Below are positions 4,583 to 63,195 of a stretch of 64,000 bases of DNA, piece by piece. The notes beneath the pieces were generated by a model. It was given only the letters and a program-made list of their open reading frames with translations, did not search any database and was not told the origin of the DNA. A program made the position numbers and the translations under genes. Position 1 is the first letter of the stretch. Every line of letters starts with the position of its first letter. Origin of the DNA: Rhizobium sp. N324 (GTDB taxonomy: Bacteria > Pseudomonadota > Alphaproteobacteria > Rhizobiales > Rhizobiaceae); the NCBI RefSeq assembly GCF_001664485.1, contig NZ_CP013630.1, positions 561,001 through 625,000 on the forward strand, written 5' to 3'.

Positions 4583-5266
4583 ATGATCCCGAGAGTTGCA
4601 GTTGTTGAAGACGAGGAAGCCCTGAGCGTGCTTCTCCGCTACAATCTCGAAGCTGAGGGCTTCGAGGTCGATACCATCCTTCGTGGCGACGAGGCCGAAA
4701 TCAGGCTTCAGGAGCGCACGCCCGACCTTCTCATCCTCGACTGGATGCTGCCCGGCGTCTCCGGCATCGAGCTTTGCCGGCGCCTGCGCATGCGGCCGGA
4801 AACCGAGCGGCTGCCGATCATCATGCTGACGGCGCGCGGCGAAGAGAGCGAACGCGTCCGCGGGCTTTCCACCGGCGCCGACGATTATGTCGTCAAGCCC
4901 TTCTCGACCCCCGAGCTCGTCGCCCGCGTCAAGGCGATGCTGCGCCGCGCCCGTCCGGAGGTTCTCTCCACCGTGCTGAAATGCGGCGATATCGAGCTCG
5001 ACCGCGAAACCCACCGCGTCCACCGCAAGAGCCGCGAAGTCCGCCTCGGCCCCACCGAATTCCGCCTGTTGGAATTCCTGATGTCGTCGCCGGGCCGGGT
5101 CTTCTCCCGCTCGCAGCTCCTCGACGGCGTCTGGGGCCACGACATCTATGTCGACGAACGCACCGTCGACGTCCATGTCGGCCGCCTGCGCAAGGCGCTG
5201 AACTTCTCCAACATGCAAGACGTCATCCGCACCGTCCGCGGCGCCGGCTATTCGATGGAAGCCTGA
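4583..5266 (+). CDS. phoB: Phosphate regulon response regulator PhoB
   Basis: OmpR/PhoB-type DNA-binding response regulator activated by PhoR under phosphate limitation. The 227-aa protein has a receiver domain with acidic residues D10/E11, phosphoacceptor D53 in LLILDWMLPG and conserved K105 in DDYVVKPF. A C-terminal winged helix follows (about 130-225), with the DNA-contact region ERTVDVHVGRLRKAL. The start has a GAGGAG site at 4566-4571. It ends the pst-phoU-phoB cluster, as in Sinorhizobium and Agrobacterium. Confidence 0.97.
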   Translation: MIPRVAVVEDEEALSVLLRYNLEAEGFEVDTILRGDEAEIRLQERTPDLLILDWMLPGVSGIELCRRLRMRPETERLPIIMLTARGEESERVRGLSTGADDYVVKPFSTPELVARVKAMLRRARPEVLSTVLKCGDIELDRETHRVHRKSREVRLGPTEFRLLEFLMSSPGRVFSRSQLLDGVWGHDIYVDERTVDVHVGRLRKALNFSNMQDVIRTVRGAGYSMEA

Positions 5267-5360
5267 GCCGCCATCCTGCCGCCGTCCGGGCGAGGGAGCC
5301 GCGTAACGCAAAACGCGGCCGATAGATCACCGCACGCTGCGGTTCCTGCCGCGGACGTTC

Positions 5361-5405
5361 CCCCACCCTCCGTCGTCCTCGGGCTTGACCCGAGGACCCA
5401 TGCGG
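5361..5405 (+). repeat. Family A palindrome, copy 1
   Basis: First copy of a rhizobial intergenic palindrome. The core at 5375-5397 is GTCCTCGGG-CTTGA-CCCGAGGAC, a 9-bp stem with a 5-base loop, preceded by CCACCCTCCGTC and followed by CCATGCGG. This copy is in forward orientation and opens the seven-copy array running to 7853. Confidence 0.85.
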
Positions 5406-5475
5406 GTGGGCACTTCGTTTCTGTTGAACTGACAAGGCGACCGCGGTCGACAAATTCAAGCGCAGCGCTTGCGGC

Positions 5476-5496
5476 ATGGATACTCGGGTCAAGCCC
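5476..5496 (-). repeat. Family A palindrome, copy 2, left half with target duplication
   Basis: Reverse-oriented family A copy split by the insertion sequence. This side reads GCATGGATACTC and ends with GGGTCAAGCCC (5486-5496), the left copy of the 11-bp target duplication. The intact form can be read at 7632-7676. Confidence 0.85.
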
Positions 5497-6765
5497 ACTG
5501 CTGTCCGGTTAAAATATCTGGACAGGTTGCATGGCATTGATTCTATTCGTTTTCAGACGTTTCGCGGCGTTCTGGACACGAATTGGAGATCAATGTCATG
5601 CGGCACGAGAATAGCGTTTTTCACCAGCTTCAACAGTATATTCCGTGGGCGGTGTTCGATCGTCTTGTGGACAAGCATAATGCCGACCACCGGGTGCGCC
5701 GGCTGACGGCGAAGTCGCAGTTCCTGGCGCTGCTTTTTGGCCAGTTGTCGGGCGCTGCCAGCCTGCGCGAGATCGAGGCCGGCTTGCTCAGCCACGAGGC
5801 GAACCTTTATCACCTGGGCGCTCGCAGTGTGGCCCGTGCCACGCTGGCGGATGCCAATGCCAAGCGCCCGGCAGCCTTGTTTGCCGATCTGTTCTCCGTC
5901 ATGGCTGCCCGTGCCAGTCGAAAGATACGCCGTCATATCGGCGATACGCTGCGTATATTGGATGCCACACGCGTCCAGGTCTCCTCGCTGTATGGCGGCT
6001 GGGCCGACATGGTTGGCGGCAAACGGGCCATCAAACTGCATGTCTGCTACGATCCGCACGCCGACGCGCCGCTCGCCATGACGCTGACCGGTCAGAGGAC
6101 GAACGACATCATCCCGGCCAGGGCGATCGACATTGCTGCGGGCGTCACCTATGTCTTCGATCTTGCCTATTACGATTTTGCCTGGTGGGCCGAGATCGAT
6201 AGAAAGAGCGCCCGTTTCGTCACCAGGCTGAAGAGCAATACCCTCGTCGCCACGATCGCCGAACAGCCAGCCGATGAAGCTGCGGGCATTCTCTTCGACA
6301 GGATCGGGCTCCTGCCGCAAAGGCTCGCCGGTTCCCGGCAGAACCCCTTTCAGGATCCGGTGCGCGAGATCGCCGTCCGCATCAGGACCGGCAAGGTCAT
6401 CCGCCTCATCACCAACGACCTCGACGCTCCGGCAGCCGAGATCGCCACCCTTTACAAGCAGCGTTGGCAAATCGAACTCTTCTTCAAATGGATCAAGCAG
6501 AACCTGAAGATCCGGCATTTTCTCGGAACCTCGGAAAATGCCGTGCGCATCCAGGTCTTCGTCGCGCTCATTGCCTATCTGCTGCTGCGAATGGCCCAGG
6601 CAGCCCAGAAAGACATCGCTCAGCCGCTCGCATTCTCAAGGCTCGTGCGCCTCAACATCATGCATCGCAGGGCAATCGGCGCCCTGCGAAGACCGCCGGC
6701 AATCACCAAAGCAGATCCACGGCAATTATCACTGCCCATCACCGCAAGTTAAACCGGACAGCAGT
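5497..6765 (+). mobile_element. IS4-family insertion sequence, 1269 bp, complete
   Basis: Both ends can be defined. The left end begins ACTGCTGTCCGGTT, and the right end is its exact reverse complement over 14 bp (6752-6765). The element is flanked by direct copies of GGGTCAAGCCC (5486-5496 and 6766-6776), an 11-bp target duplication within the range known for IS4-family elements. It carries one intact transposase gene whose stop lies inside the right inverted repeat. Identical 14-bp ends and a perfect duplication suggest recent insertion. It sits in the core of a family A palindrome, so it interrupts no gene. Confidence 0.95.
5598..6752 (+). CDS. IS4-family transposase
   Basis: Cut-and-paste DDE transposase of the surrounding element, 384 aa from ATG 5598. 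A TTG at 5583 would add five residues. The N-terminal region (about 1-75) is the IS4-type DNA-binding segment. The first catalytic Asp is probably in ILDATRV and the second in VFDLAYYD. The IS4 hallmark Y(2)R(3)E(6)K is exact in YKQRWQIELFFKWIK and supplies the catalytic Glu. No frameshift or stop is visible, so it may be active. Confidence 0.95.
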   Translation: MRHENSVFHQLQQYIPWAVFDRLVDKHNADHRVRRLTAKSQFLALLFGQLSGAASLREIEAGLLSHEANLYHLGARSVARATLADANAKRPAALFADLFSVMAARASRKIRRHIGDTLRILDATRVQVSSLYGGWADMVGGKRAIKLHVCYDPHADAPLAMTLTGQRTNDIIPARAIDIAAGVTYVFDLAYYDFAWWAEIDRKSARFVTRLKSNTLVATIAEQPADEAAGILFDRIGLLPQRLAGSRQNPFQDPVREIAVRIRTGKVIRLITNDLDAPAAEIATLYKQRWQIELFFKWIKQNLKIRHFLGTSENAVRIQVFVALIAYLLLRMAQAAQKDIAQPLAFSRLVRLNIMHRRAIGALRRPPAITKADPRQLSLPITAS

Positions 6766-6794
6766 GGGTCAAGCCCGAGTATGACGGAGGGTGA
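6766..6794 (-). repeat. Family A palindrome, copy 2, right half with target duplication
   Basis: Right half of the palindrome interrupted by the IS. It begins with the duplicated GGGTCAAGCCC (6766-6776) and continues GAGTATGACGGAGGG. Removing the IS and one duplicate restores a normal family A copy. Confidence 0.85.
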
Positions 6795-6828
6795 GGGAGC
6801 ACGAGCAGCAAGAAGCGAGAGGTCTGGA

Positions 6829-6895
6829 GCAATTCCAACAAAATGGGCGAACGGTTTTGCGTGGAAAGCGCGGAAACAAATGGCGGCAATTCCAA
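6829..6895. repeat. Family E (AATTCC) palindrome-like spacer element
   Basis: An imperfect inverted element between family A copies 2 and 3. It begins AATTCCAACAAAATGGGCG, has ACGGTTTTGCG in the middle and closes with GGCAATTCC. Related sequence fills the spacers after copies 4, 6 and 8 and stands alone at 50857 and 52031. Confidence 0.6.
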
Positions 6896-6930
6896 TAACC
6901 GCTACGCTTACGGTTCTTGCCGCATAGGTT

Positions 6931-6975
6931 CCCCCACCCTCCGTCGTCCTCGGGCTTGACCCGAGGACCCACCGC
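6931..6975 (+). repeat. Family A palindrome, copy 3
   Basis: Forward copy with the same CCACCCTCCGTCGTCC lead and palindromic core as copy 1. It lies 63 bp beyond the 3' end of the GIY-YIG gene and forms an inverted pair with copy 4 on the other side of that gene. Confidence 0.85.
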
Positions 6976-7037
6976 CACAAGCACTTCGGCTCGATGTGGT
7001 TACCGCCAACGCCATGGCCGCAAGCACTGCTTTCGCA

Positions 7038-7322
7038 TCACCACAGCGTAAGATACAGATCATCCCACCCAGGATTCATCGCCTCGACCAGATCGACCTT
7101 CCATTGCCGGTACCAGCGTTTCAACGACTTCTCCCGCTGGATCGCACTGGCGATATCCCAATGCTCCTCGTACCAGACGAGACGGGTGCATCCGTATTTC
7201 CACGCAAAGCCCGGTGTCAGCCCTTCACGATGCTCATAGATGCGGCGCTCCAGATCGGATGTCACGCCGATATAGAGCGTGCCGTTTTTCTGGTTGGTGA
7301 TGATGTAGACATAGCCCGCCAT
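7038..7322 (-). CDS. GIY-YIG nuclease superfamily small protein
   Basis: Small single-domain GIY-YIG protein (URI/COG2827 type), 94 aa. The signature is clear: GYVYIITN at residues 3-10, then TLYIGVTSDLERRIYEHR at 16-33, and the late REKSLKRW segment (about 63-70) with the likely metal-binding Glu. I start it at ATG 7322; a longer in-frame reading from 7574 runs through repeat sequence and is not credible. It has no partner gene. The nearest neighbours are family A palindromes in opposite orientation on its two sides. Its cellular role is unknown; the superfamily acts on DNA as homing, repair or transposon nucleases. Confidence 0.85.
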   Translation of the reverse strand: MAGYVYIITNQKNGTLYIGVTSDLERRIYEHREGLTPGFAWKYGCTRLVWYEEHWDIASAIQREKSLKRWYRQWKVDLVEAMNPGWDDLYLTLW

Positions 7323-7336
7323 CCGCGCAGAGTGCT

Positions 7337-7380
7337 GGGCATGGATGCTCGGGTCAAGCCCGAGCAGGACGGAGGGTGGG
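7337..7380 (-). repeat. Family A palindrome, copy 4
   Basis: Reverse copy, GCATGGATGCTCGGGTCAAG onward, ending GGACGGAGGGTGGGG. It begins 15 bp upstream of the GIY-YIG start codon and probably lies in that gene's leader. Confidence 0.85.
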
Positions 7381-7514
7381 GAGGTGGGATGGGCAAGAAG
7401 CGAGACGTTCGGAGGGTTCCAGCGAAACGGAGCAAACGGATTGGGAAAATTGCGTAAAGCGAAAAGCGCCAATTCCAGCAGAACCACTACGCTCATGGTT
7501 CCTGCCGCAAACGC

Positions 7515-7558
7515 TCCCCCACTCTCCGTCGTCCTCGGGCTTGACCCGAGGACCCATG
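7515..7558 (+). repeat. Family A palindrome, copy 5
   Basis: Forward copy with a complete GTCCTCGGG-CTTGA-CCCGAGGAC core. A 73-bp spacer to copy 6 resembles the one between copies 1 and 2; both contain CAAATTCAAGCG and end GCGGCATGGATACTC. Confidence 0.85.
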
Positions 7559-7631
7559 GCCGAGAGCGCCGCATTCGCGCTCACACTGACAAAGGCGGCC
7601 GTAGCCGAGCAAATTCAAGCGAAGTGCGTGC

Positions 7632-7676
7632 GGCATGGATACTCGGGTCAAGCCCGAGTATGACGGAGAGTGGGGG
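7632..7676 (-). repeat. Family A palindrome, copy 6
   Basis: Reverse copy that matches the reconstructed pre-insertion form of copy 2 (ATGGATACTCGGGTCAAGCC onward). It therefore shows what the IS target looked like before insertion. Confidence 0.85.
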
Positions 7677-7811
7677 GCTCGATCGGCAGGAGGCGAGACG
7701 TCTGGGGGAATTTCAGCAGAATGCGCGAGCGGTTTTGGCTGGGAATTGCGCAAAATAATATACGGCAATTCCAACAAAATCACCAGGTATTCGGCCCTTG
7801 CCGCCGAGGCT

Positions 7812-7855
7812 ACCCCACTCTCCGTCGTCCTCGGGCTTGACCCGAGGACCCATGC
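7812..7855 (+). repeat. Family A palindrome, copy 7
   Basis: Last forward copy of the array. The spacer from copy 6 (7677-7811) carries a family E AATTCC-type inverted element at about 7708-7775. Confidence 0.85.
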
Positions 7856-7959
7856 AGCAAGCACTGCGTTCGTAAAAGCGACCACAAGATAGAGCTCATC
7901 TCACTTGGAGTTCCAGCCAAAGCCCCGAAGCGTTCGCGCTATTTGCGCCCCTTAACCCA

Positions 7960-7989
7960 CAAAAAAACGGGCCTTCCAGCCCGTTTTTG
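7960..7989 (-). terminator. Intrinsic terminator of gcrA
   Basis: Read on the minus strand this is CGGGCTGGAAGGCCCG followed by seven T residues, 22 bp past the gcrA stop. An A-run on the other side would also make it work for transcripts arriving from the left. Confidence 0.85.
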
Positions 7990-8010
7990 CATCTCAATAA
8001 TGTCGCCCGC

Positions 8011-8544
8011 TCAGCTCGCCCGGGCCGCCGCCCGGCGGCGTTCGTTCACCGGCTGGTAGGCGAGCTTCTGGTGGTAGCTGCAATAGGGCGAATTGTCCGG
8101 GGATTCGCAGCCGCAGAAATGGAAGTCGTCCTTCAGCGGATCGCCGACCGGCCATTTGCAGGTGCGTTCGGTCAGTTCCGTCAGGCCGAGGCGGCGCGAG
8201 ATCGGCACGACCACGTTGCCCTTCGGCACGTATTCCATTTCCTCGACCGTTTCGATCTCGATCTCTTCCTTCAGCATCGTCGCGCCCTGCTGGCGGGTAA
8301 CGGTGCGGGTGGCGATCCGTGAGGCGTAGTTCGGTGCGCGCGGCGCAGATGTATTGCGCTTCGGCGTCCGCGCCGTGGCGGCGGTGCCGCCGGCCTTGGC
8401 GCGGCCGGGAAGGCTCAGCCTGTGTACCTTGCCGATTACAGCGTTTCTGCTGACACCGCCAAGTTGTGCCGCGATCTGGCTGGCGCTCAGTCCTTCGGCC
8501 CAAAGCTTCTTGAGTTTCTCGACCCGCTCGTCTGTCCAGTTCAT
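8011..8544 (-). CDS. gcrA: Cell-cycle regulator GcrA
   Basis: Alphaproteobacterial transcription factor that works with sigma-70 polymerase at promoters containing CcrM-methylated GANTC sites. The 177-aa protein begins with the family helix-turn-helix MNWTDERVEKLKKLWAEG...SASQIAAQLG (about 1-45). A basic, low-complexity linker follows. The conserved C-terminal segment includes CKWPVGDP and CGCESPDNSPYCSYH, a Cys/His-rich block. It is transcribed alone, divergently from argD, with several GANTC sites in the gap and a terminator behind it. Confidence 0.95.
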   Translation of the reverse strand: MNWTDERVEKLKKLWAEGLSASQIAAQLGGVSRNAVIGKVHRLSLPGRAKAGGTAATARTPKRNTSAPRAPNYASRIATRTVTRQQGATMLKEEIEIETVEEMEYVPKGNVVVPISRRLGLTELTERTCKWPVGDPLKDDFHFCGCESPDNSPYCSYHQKLAYQPVNERRRAAARAS

Positions 8545-13013: not shown

Positions 13014-13055
13014 GCATGGGTCCTCAGGTCAAGCCCGAGGACGACGGAGGGTGGC
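13014..13055 (-). repeat. Family A palindrome, copy 8
   Basis: Reverse copy, CATGGGTCCTCAGGTCAAGC onward, ending GGACGACGGAGGGTGG. It pairs with copy 9 across a family E spacer in the same reverse-then-forward arrangement as copies 2-3, 4-5 and 6-7. Confidence 0.8.
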
Positions 13056-13206: not shown

Positions 13207-13252
13207 GTCCCCACCCTCCGTCGTCCTCGGGCTTGACCCGAGGACCCATGCG
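13207..13252 (+). repeat. Family A palindrome, copy 9
   Basis: Forward copy with the full CCACCCTCCGTCGTCC lead and palindromic core, 39 bp beyond the 3' end of apaG. Confidence 0.85.
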
Positions 13253-17594: not shown

Positions 17595-17634
17595 AGCGAG
17601 AACGGGAGTCCACAAATTGGGGGTGAAGGCTCGT

Positions 17635-17815
17635 GCCCCTCATCCGCCTGCCGGCACCTTCTCCCCGCACGCGGGGCGAAGGGGGTGTGCCGCGACCTCT
17701 CGGTTCCTCGCCAGCGCCTCGCAGGGCACGTCCCCTCGCCCCGTTCTTACGGGGGTCCGAAGGACGGGTCGAGACCAGTGGCTCGACCCAGCCAACGGTT
17801 AGGGTGAGGGGCAGC
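17635..17815. repeat. Family B palindromic element, copy 1 (with internal insertion)
   Basis: The outer ends are GCCCCTCATCCGCCTGCCGG and GGTTAGGGTGAGGGGC, with internal CTTCTCCCCGC and CCCCTCGCCCCG blocks. Compared with the other copies the second half has about 35 extra bases around 17757-17798, themselves palindromic (GGGTCGAG and CTCGACCC arms). Confidence 0.75.
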
Positions 17816-19848: not shown

Positions 19849-20339
19849 GGAAATGTTACCCGGTTGACCAGGCGTCGCACGCCCGGTGCTTTAAAATCAA
19901 TTGTTGCAAACAGAGCGCTGCGTCGGTGGCGCGGCTCAGGGATTATTGCGGGGTTGACACATGCATCATGCAATCGGCCGGCGGGTCCGTGTCGTCGTCA
20001 CAAATAGAGGCGATATTCTTTAATTCCGCGCTAACGGCAGGGCGGCGACACGGTGATTTTTGGGGGTAAGGAGGGCCACGGTTGCCACCGCACCGAAGGC
20101 TCGCTGCCCCTCACCCTAACCCTCTCCCCGTAAAAACGGGGCGAGGGGACGTGCCCCGCGAGACGTTAGCGGGGGACGGAGAGGTCGCGGCAAAATCTCC
20201 TTCTCCCCGTAAAACGGGGAGAAGGTGCCGGCAGGCGGATGAGGGGCGGATGCGCACGATCCGTCCCATAGATATTTCCCGCCCGGCATGACTCTGTTAC
20301 ATCTCGCGGCAACGCTTCGCGCTTAACTCCGAGACCACG
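19849..20339. other. Intergenic region upstream of MCP and solute-binding protein
   Basis: A 491-bp divergent gap. It carries a family B repeat at 20106-20247 and should contain the two promoters. I see no further gene or RNA. Confidence 0.6.
20106..20247. repeat. Family B palindromic element, copy 2
   Basis: It begins GCCCCTCACCCTAACCCTCT and ends GGCAGGCGGATGAGGGGC. Two inner hairpins are built on CCCCGTAAAAACGGGG and CTCCCCGTAAAACGGGGAG. Confidence 0.8.
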
Positions 20340-30556: not shown

Positions 30557-30600
30557 CACCCCACACTCCGTCATCCTCGGGCTTGACCCGAGGATCCACG
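30557..30600 (+). repeat. Family A palindrome, copy 10
   Basis: Forward copy, CACACTCCGTCATCCTCGGG onward, with an A for G change in the lead. It is separated from copy 11 by a short spacer of about 20 bp. Confidence 0.8.
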
Positions 30601-30620
30601 CTGGCCTCCGTCAGACGGGG

Positions 30621-30664
30621 CCATGGATCCCAGGCTCAAGGCCTGGGATGACGGAGATTGGGGG
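30621..30664 (-). repeat. Family A palindrome, copy 11 (divergent)
   Basis: Reverse copy, CCATGGATCCCAGGCTCAAG onward. The stem sequence has changed on both sides (CCCAGGC and GCCTGGG), so pairing is kept. This shows that selection or gene conversion acts on the structure. Confidence 0.75.
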
Positions 30665-38761: not shown

Positions 38762-39202
38762 AGCCGACCCCGAATGATGACCGCTCCTGCCGGGCGGTTT
38801 TTGTCACGTCCCCGTTCGAATGCGCACCATACTGTGAAATCGTTGCCAGAGGCTTTCGATCGGCCCCGCAATTAGCCCTAGAGATTGGCGGAGAGATCGA
38901 TGGCAGAGGATTCGACGATGCGCGGATCGATATGTCCGGGCATAATCCGGCTTTTTTCAGATTGCATGACGGGCGGGGCCAAAAAGTGGGGAAAGCCTTG
39001 CGGCATAGTGCCGCCAGGCGGCGTGGATGGTTGCCCCTCACCCTAACCCTCTCCCCGTAAACGGGGCGAGGGGACGTGCCCCGCGAGGGCGAGGTGGAAA
39101 CGGAGAGGGCGCGGCTGGTGCCCTTCGCCCCGCGTGCGGGGAGAAGGTGGCGGCAGCCGGATGAGGGGCCGGCTCGATGCCGCCCGCATCAATCACCGTG
39201 CC
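38762..39202. other. Intergenic region between TauE and podJ
   Basis: These 441 bp hold a family B repeat at 39032-39169. In the remaining 270 bp I see no convincing gene. Confidence 0.6.
39032..39169. repeat. Family B palindromic element, copy 3
   Basis: It begins TGCCCCTCACCCTAACCCTC and ends CGGCAGCCGGATGAGGGG, with internal CCCCGTAAACGGGG and CCCCGCGTGCGGGG hairpins, next to the podJ 3' end. Confidence 0.8.
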
Positions 39203-61323: not shown

Positions 61324-61633
61324 TCGGGGCCCCGCTACTGTCGTTCGCGTCGATAGCTGCCCCTCACCCTAGCCCTCTCCCCGTAAAAACGGGGAGAGGG
61401 GACGTGCCTTGCGAGAGGTAGGTGGGGACTGGAGAGGTCGCGGCAGATCCCCTTCTCCCCGTTTTACGGGGAGAAGGTGCCGGCAGGCGGATGAGGGGCG
61501 GGCGTCAATCTCCCAGCGGGATTTTTTCCGTCGGCCGGCCAGGCCATTCATCACGAAAATCGATATGCCATCACTCGATATCATGGGATTTGCCGGCATA
61601 AATCTTCTATGAAGGCGGAAACCGGAGATATGC
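61324..61633. other. Intergenic region with family B repeat
   Basis: Of the 310 bp between mscL and the aminotransferase gene, 61358-61500 is a family B element. The last 130 bp should hold the aminotransferase promoter. No gene is seen. Confidence 0.65.
61358..61500. repeat. Family B palindromic element, copy 4
   Basis: It begins TGCCCCTCACCCTAGCCCTC and ends GCAGGCGGATGAGGGGCG, with CCCCGTAAAAACGGGG and CTCCCCGTTTTACGGGGAG inner hairpins. Confidence 0.8.
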
Positions 61634-62800: not shown

Positions 62801-63195
62801 CATCGGTCCGGCCTGTTGCGAAAAGGAGCGTCATCCACGGTCCAGGAGATAGGTGAGGGCTGCCCCTCATCCGGCTGCCGCCACCTTCTCCCCGCTCGCG
62901 GGGCGAAGGGGATGTGCCGCAACCTCTCCGTCCCCCGCCAGCCTCTCGCAGGGCACGTCCCCTCGCCCCGCAAGCGGGGAGAGGGTTAGGGTGAGGGGCA
63001 GTCATCAGGCGCGAATGCCGCGATTTCGTGCCGGAATCGGCCGATCGATAAAACTTGAGCAAAGCCTGAAATCGGCCTCTAACCACAAGTCCAAACATAC
63101 CGGTTCAAAGGCCCTCGAACGGCCATTCGATAAGAAAATTGGAAAGAAAAACCGGGCCTGATGCCCCTGCTATAAACAAGGCAGGGATGCGGGAC
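62801..63195. other. Intergenic region upstream of galE/exoB
   Basis: Of these 395 bp, 62861-63000 is a family B repeat. The remainder (63001-63195) is less GC-rich near its end (about 63115-63175) and probably carries the galE promoter. No gene is seen. Confidence 0.6.
62861..63000. repeat. Family B palindromic element, copy 5
   Basis: In the orientation opposite to copies 2-4: it begins TGCCCCTCATCCGGCTGCCG and ends GAGGGTTAGGGTGAGGGGC, with CCCCGCTCGCGGGG and CCCCGCAAGCGGGG hairpins. Confidence 0.8.

Follow-up and report, generated by a model that had tools for sequence, protein, structure and literature searches.

A GIY-YIG nuclease gene framed by CGTC-tagged palindromes in Rhizobium: a candidate compact mobile unit

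What places a gene for a small GIY-YIG nuclease between two inverted palindromes, at a position where the same array elsewhere has only a short spacer? The question is raised by a stretch of 64,000 nucleotides from Rhizobium sp. N324 (contig NZ_CP013630.1, positions 561,001 to 625,000; the whole of this stretch is called the window), which carries an array of repetitive extragenic palindromic sequences (REPs) with a 94-aa GIY-YIG gene inside it. An earlier note, drawn from the letters alone, had described the gene as flanked by inverted palindrome copies and as standing where a forward-to-reverse spacer would be. Both descriptions hold: the flanking copies lie at 6942-6971 (+) and 7342-7371 (-), with their CCA tails pointing at the gene (an orientation referred to below as tails-in), and the gene does occupy the place of such a spacer, as a gene-less tails-in pair at 7527-7665 with a spacer of 79 bp makes plain. 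The parts of the unit and of its nearest neighbours are these:

6942-6971, plus strand: REP CGTCGTCCTCGGGCTTGACCCGAGGACCCA, CGTC-tagged, downstream of the GIY-YIG gene, CCA tail to the gene
6972-7037, minus strand: trailer, from the stop codon to the downstream REP
7038-7322, minus strand: coding sequence of the GIY-YIG nuclease, 94 aa, PF01541, with a predicted structure
7323-7341, minus strand: leader, from the upstream REP to the ATG, with similar sequence in the leaders of further units and at one end of the gene-less pairs
7342-7371, minus strand: REP CGTCCTGCTCGGGCTTGACCCGAGCATCCA, CGTC-tagged, upstream of the gene, its end 19 bp from the ATG, CCA tail to the gene
7372-7526: repeated spacer within the heads-together REP dimer next to the unit
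7527-7556, plus strand: REP, first arm of the gene-less tails-in pair
7636-7665, minus strand: REP, second arm of the gene-less tails-in pair

We consider it probable that this REP–gene–REP block is a compact selfish unit whose nuclease targets the palindrome that frames it, with paralogous nucleases largely accompanied by palindromes of their own. The reading draws on patterns that can be read from the sequences: recurrent framing, a correspondence between protein types and REP types within one genus, polymorphism of the occupied sites, and a common leader and trailer. Most likely, the nuclease would cut the hairpin of a REP whose DNA is single-stranded during replication, repair or uptake; repair or recombination using other REPs as homology would then copy the unit, or a gene-less short form of it, to other sites. 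REP cleavage, the preference for single strands and the role of cleavage as the driver of copying are steps that we infer.

The palindromes agree with the definition of CGTC-tagged REPs given in passages of Di Nocera et al. (2013; PMC3733652), namely a CGTC tag, a stem of 8-9 bp, a loop of 4-5 and a CCA tail; those of the window have the tag, a 9-bp stem, a 5-nt loop and the CCA tail, and likewise form dimers. The same passages place such REPs mostly in Alphaproteobacteria and describe them, as of 2013, as lacking a dedicated transposase gene, whereas here they have a frequent companion in a gene for a predicted GIY-YIG nuclease. Their number in the window is well above expectation. Allowing up to three mismatches, the core CTCGGGYTTGACCCGAG occurs 11 times against 0.63 expected; allowing up to two, it has 84 matches in the whole genome, against 2 for the reversed control. 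A structural detector recovers 10 REPs in the window and 0, 1, 0, 0 and 0 in five Markov-made control windows.

Without its initial Met, the product of the gene (93 aa) matches the GIY-YIG domain in Pfam (PF01541, E 1.5e-18), and its residues Y6, Y17, R27 and E64 are invariant among 38 aligned sequences; the conserved Tyr, Arg and Glu residues of GIY-YIG enzymes have established catalytic roles. An AlphaFold2 model of the 93 residues has the GIY-YIG fold, with a mean predicted local distance difference test (pLDDT) score of 94.3. Its nearest structure match is UPF0213 (1zg2), followed by Slx1 and UvrC, with only 1zg2 at E <0.001. UPF0213/YhbQ-like proteins (1zg2, 1ywl) are similar to the window protein in fold and size, but just 30% and 20% identical to it in structural alignments. 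The arrangement also recalls REP-associated tyrosine transposases (RAYTs, or TnpA-REP) and REPtrons, in which an enzyme gene is likewise framed by REPs and short REP dimers occur elsewhere in the genome. RAYTs, however, belong to the HUH tyrosine transposases and go with GTAG REPs, and the window protein is a GIY-YIG nuclease in which no joining domain was seen; in place of the HUH motif and catalytic tyrosine of a RAYT, Pfam returns GIY-YIG and T5orf172 alone. At E <=1e-10, 146 of the 387 genomes of Alphaproteobacteria, from 102 of 263 genera, have a homologue. No match was found at 1e-6 in 50,697 phage records.

How often, then, is such a gene framed? Scoring the flanks of homologues, as the earlier note had proposed, was done in two samples; in both, the controls are positions in the same loci rather than size-matched intergenic genes. 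Among named relatives, mostly Rhizobiales, the best 80 of 125 were taken and the 75 with full 400-bp flanks counted, 5 being left out. A REP lies on either side in 66 of these loci, on both in 34 and in inverted orientation in 28 (26 tails-in), while the 1943 control positions yield 30 upstream, 27 downstream, 5 on both sides and 0 inverted. The class-wide sample took one locus each, the best-scoring place listed, from 93 of the 146 genomes; three without full 300-bp flanks were dropped, leaving 90, and 12 alphaproteobacterial genomes with weak matches were analysed apart. With a strict detector and REPs within 300 bp, 63 of the 90 have a REP on either side, 41 on both and 32 inverted (28 tails-in); the corresponding figures for 346 control positions are 15, 0 and 0. 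When the detector is loosened, the loci with a REP on either side number 75, those with both 56 and those framed tails-in 50, and of the 346 control positions 36 have a REP on either side and 1 on both. For more distant alphaproteobacterial GIY-YIG genes, the strict detector finds a REP within 300 bp in 0 of 17, with one stray match at 336 bp; the loose detector finds 1 of 17, with dissimilar matches on its two sides. The control positions and these unframed distant genes rule out chance or a dense array as the cause of the framing.

They also bear on mere co-location, the idea that REPs and the gene both accumulate in convergent intergenic regions. Both sites studied, phoB-gcrA and cutC-adh, are convergent intergenic regions, as that idea would have it. 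Yet none of the 346 control positions (positions, again, and not size-matched intergenic genes) has REPs on both sides by the strict detector, and none of the 17 distant genes is framed by that measure. Moreover, in 21 of the 27 framed units listed, a leader of 19-23 nt separates the start codon from the upstream REP (L040 and L280 in this tally are probably one copy), and REP type mostly follows protein type, as detailed below; co-location alone is thus very improbable. The length of the leader might instead suit a regulatory role, with leader and trailer hairpins regulating the nuclease mRNA and the remaining copies being by-products. Elsewhere, however, the REP stands farther off, in another orientation or on one side only, and neither promoter and terminator scans of 6900-7600 nor an Rfam search of 5200-8100 found any match, so that we regard this explanation, too, as improbable.

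A cognate pairing of nuclease and REP appears well supported. Typing covered 28 distinct loci of the window's genus, L179 among them; L178 and L451 represent a single copy and are counted once. Type A proteins are accompanied by the REP loop CTTGA or CTCGA in 11 of 11 cases, type B2 proteins by the loop CTTGT with a CT tail in 6 of 6, and type B1 proteins by the stem ATTCCTGTG in 7 of 11. Among these typed loci that stem occurs with B1 alone, just as the combination of loop CTTGT and CT tail occurs with B2 alone, barring a few B1 REPs with the tail CTAG. One genome (G366) has both B1 and B2 genes, each beside its own REP type. In the genus, moreover, the REP pattern of CTTGA type is present in all 12 genomes with type A genes (E <=1e-45), which have between 1 and 72 matches, and in 18 of the other 48. 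Where a genome has more than one framed copy (8 genomes, 18 units), the two REPs of one unit have a similarity of 0.944, against 0.764 when shuffled in the same genome (6 of 2000 shuffles reach the observed value), although this likeness could also come about if both arms were copied as a pair. Across families, REP class tracks the protein tree weakly, changing 14 times on it against a shuffled mean of 24.6 and minimum of 18. With framing in most homologues, its absence around the distant genes and a REP type that mostly tracks protein type in the genus, the earlier description of the link as only positional is superseded. Separately, one genome (G105; L160-L167, L405, L406) holds 10-11 copies of the nuclease gene, several of them adjoining different REP types.

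Mobility of the REP-GIY-YIG units gains indirect support from their patchy presence at orthologous sites. At phoB-gcrA, compared in the best 30 of 59 matching genus genomes, two loci carry the gene: the window and L280, the latter as a minimal unit. Four others (L269, L271, L281 and L282) have a gene-less tails-in REP pair, L272 has a same-direction REP pair, L267 a stray detector match and 22 have nothing; a decayed REP pair was read by eye in L279. The phoB gene was seen within 1.5 kb in 26 of the 30 loci; the exceptions are L276, L284, L286 and the window, whose phoB gene stands past the array. At cutC-adh, the site of another unit (L033, the same place as L293), the best 30 of 40 genomes include 1 with the unit, 8 with at least two REPs and no gene, 1 with one REP and 20 with none; in 10 of the 30 the genes are 5-41 bp apart, which we take as the ancestral state. 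At this site cutC was not found in L301 and L308. For a further copy, on a plasmid of Rhizobium sp. CIAT894, no readable junction marking a clean empty site was seen in 40 of 123 records, because homology to the right flank begins near the ctp stop codon in the records listed.

The gene-less pairs share both of the unit's unequal ends: compared with leader plus trailer, 24 of 40 spacers beat all 20 shuffles, and 16 fail to do so. Having both ends in common with the gene-bearing form, these 24 resemble miniature inverted-repeat transposable elements (MITEs). A homing endonuclease gene would stand within its own recognition site in one allele and leave that site intact in another; here, gene-less pairs and gene-bearing units occupy one site in different genomes, and either form may have come first. 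The target-site duplication expected of a DDE-type transposon gave no signal in 84 units and pairs. The suggestion of a minimal mobile unit thus finds backing in the presence and absence of units at orthologous sites and in the MITE-like pairs; that the enzyme spreads the REPs is a further possibility.

A different account would have the nuclease cut its cognate REP as a guard over DNA uptake or over recombination at REPs, the role reported for Ssn and NTS in Neisseria, with units spreading solely by homologous recombination between REP arrays. Several observations suit it. The second copy of the unit lies 606 kb away in the same genome, with a protein 98% identical, and both copies are located in REP arrays; their single alignment, 804 bp at 92%, runs in the window from 6766, within a palindrome and at the border of the IS4-family element, to 7569, about 13 bp past another palindrome. 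The absence of target duplication is also as this account expects, and a Neisseria gonorrhoeae homologue, in a record filed under plasmids, is 54.8% identical over 93 aa (99% of the query) and lies among dRS3-type repeats (5 strict matches in 6.3 kb), one REP to its left and one to its right. We nonetheless judge this account rather unlikely: units are found at sites where many relatives have no REP, and the short forms share both unequal ends, neither of which is predicted by array recombination alone.

The Neisseria locus merits closer comparison with the proposed selfish unit. We take the N. gonorrhoeae homologue to be the gene named ssn; Chenal and colleagues, in Nature Communications in 2025, are said to have described Ssn as a Neisseria nuclease specific for single-stranded NTS repeats, and reportedly it has many homologues and matching sequences. 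By homology, at the identity given above, the window protein would fall within the Ssn family, and both systems would have a small stand-alone GIY-YIG protein among repeats. The window unit, unlike the Neisseria locus, is tails-in, with one REP per side; in addition, its paralogous types mostly go with different REPs in one genus, and there are MITE-like gene-less forms. In passages of Di Nocera et al. (2013; PMC3733652), dRS3 repeats are filed as CGTC-1 REPs. REPs beside the gene outside Alphaproteobacteria mostly have GCG..GC loops, as in Neisseria repeats.

A number of findings weigh against the selfish-unit reading. Grouped by flank similarity, the named loci together with the window and the second copy form 35 site clusters, and 15 named loci fall in the largest, which points to inheritance in place. 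Outside Alphaproteobacteria (31 of 38 genomes with a match, short flanks kept), a REP is found on either side in only 17 of 31 loci (9 of 13 and 8 of 18), and the REPs closest to the N. gonorrhoeae gene turn CGTC heads towards it, where the window unit presents tails. Among the B1 exceptions, L443 and L444 have CGTC REPs with an 8-bp stem and a loop partly CTTGA, like type A, L452 has another stem and L449 has no REP. Across families the fit is weak, 53 of 83 REP classes being predicted rightly from other-family neighbours against a shuffled mean of 45 and maximum of 57. A terminal repeat longer than the REP accounts for part of the leader similarity, and the lack of any target-site duplication signal is a further difficulty.

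REP abundance gives a divided answer. Raw counts of the REP pattern, which ignore genome size and relatedness, have a median of 23 in 134 genomes with a strong homologue and 9 in the other 253; at least 50 matches occur in 31 of the 134 and 10 of the 253. Counting against the same reading, then, 10 of the 41 REP-rich genomes have no gene, and when 20 gene-less genomes with at least 31 matches were searched again at 1e-5, 17 gave nothing and 3 gave weak matches. Within the genus, REP-rich genomes without the gene include G398 with 64 and G419 with 47 matches. REPs therefore outlast the gene or arise otherwise. The earlier note had named two outcomes that would tell against it: homologues mostly lacking palindromes, which is not what is seen (63 of 90 have them), and palindrome-rich genomes without the gene, which are found in part. 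Its interpretation is, in sum, partly supported.

Because similar pairings of gene and palindrome are found again in many bacteria, most of them involving a distinct palindrome type, small GIY-YIG nucleases look like the missing partners of a large repeat family lacking a known enzyme. It is possible, and we put it forward tentatively, that REP-GIY-REP units constitute a new class of minimal mobile element, in which CGTC REPs and the gene-less short forms are spread by a nuclease rather than a transposase, each nuclease lineage co-evolving with its own palindrome. If true, this would answer what mobilises CGTC REPs. A frequent nuclease partner, mostly type-specific in the genus, makes the spread of these REPs testable; the pairing parallels that of RAYT and REP with an unrelated enzyme, and it offers a large natural set of enzyme and hairpin pairs for work on specificity. 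The novelty that the earlier note saw in a GIY-YIG protein with such a role is tempered by the Ssn and NTS system of Neisseria. Among the papers searched, none has both 'GIY-YIG' and 'repetitive extragenic palindromic', and a term search of a GIY-YIG survey (PMC1564403) found no match for COG2827, UPF0213 or flank.

One relative stands in a different setting. A GIY-YIG gene with 58% identity, carried by a Planktothrix agardhii plasmid (L431, 2989-3273), has a type IIL restriction enzyme as one neighbour and drmA, a DISARM gene, as the other; the strict detector returns no REP from the 6.3 kb. The remaining features of the window are as follows:

5371-5400, plus strand: REP, left end of the array
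5494-6768: IS4-family element in the loop of a REP, with the 5-bp repeat TCAAG at 5489-5493 and 6769-6773 (ends read by eye)
7823-7852, plus strand: REP, right end of the array
13017-13046, minus strand, and 13219-13248, plus strand: additional REP dimer
30569-30653: gene-less tails-in REP pair with a 25-bp spacer

Just beyond the last REP of the array, 7853-7920 looks by eye like the decayed 3' end of a GIY-YIG gene. IS4-family elements with the same ends lie in a REP loop twice, at 5489-6773 of the window and at 1503-2789 of L461, the CIAT894 plasmid; the latter has the 5-bp repeat TCAGG (by eye) and matches records annotated as ISRel1 family, and both elements adjoin a GIY-YIG unit. A different intergenic repeat family, of CCCCTCACCCTAACCCTCTCCCCG type, occurs at 17634-17743, 20094-20249, 39021-39171, 61347-61501 and 62861-62970, and by eye such repeats are also present at the phoB-gcrA site of relatives.
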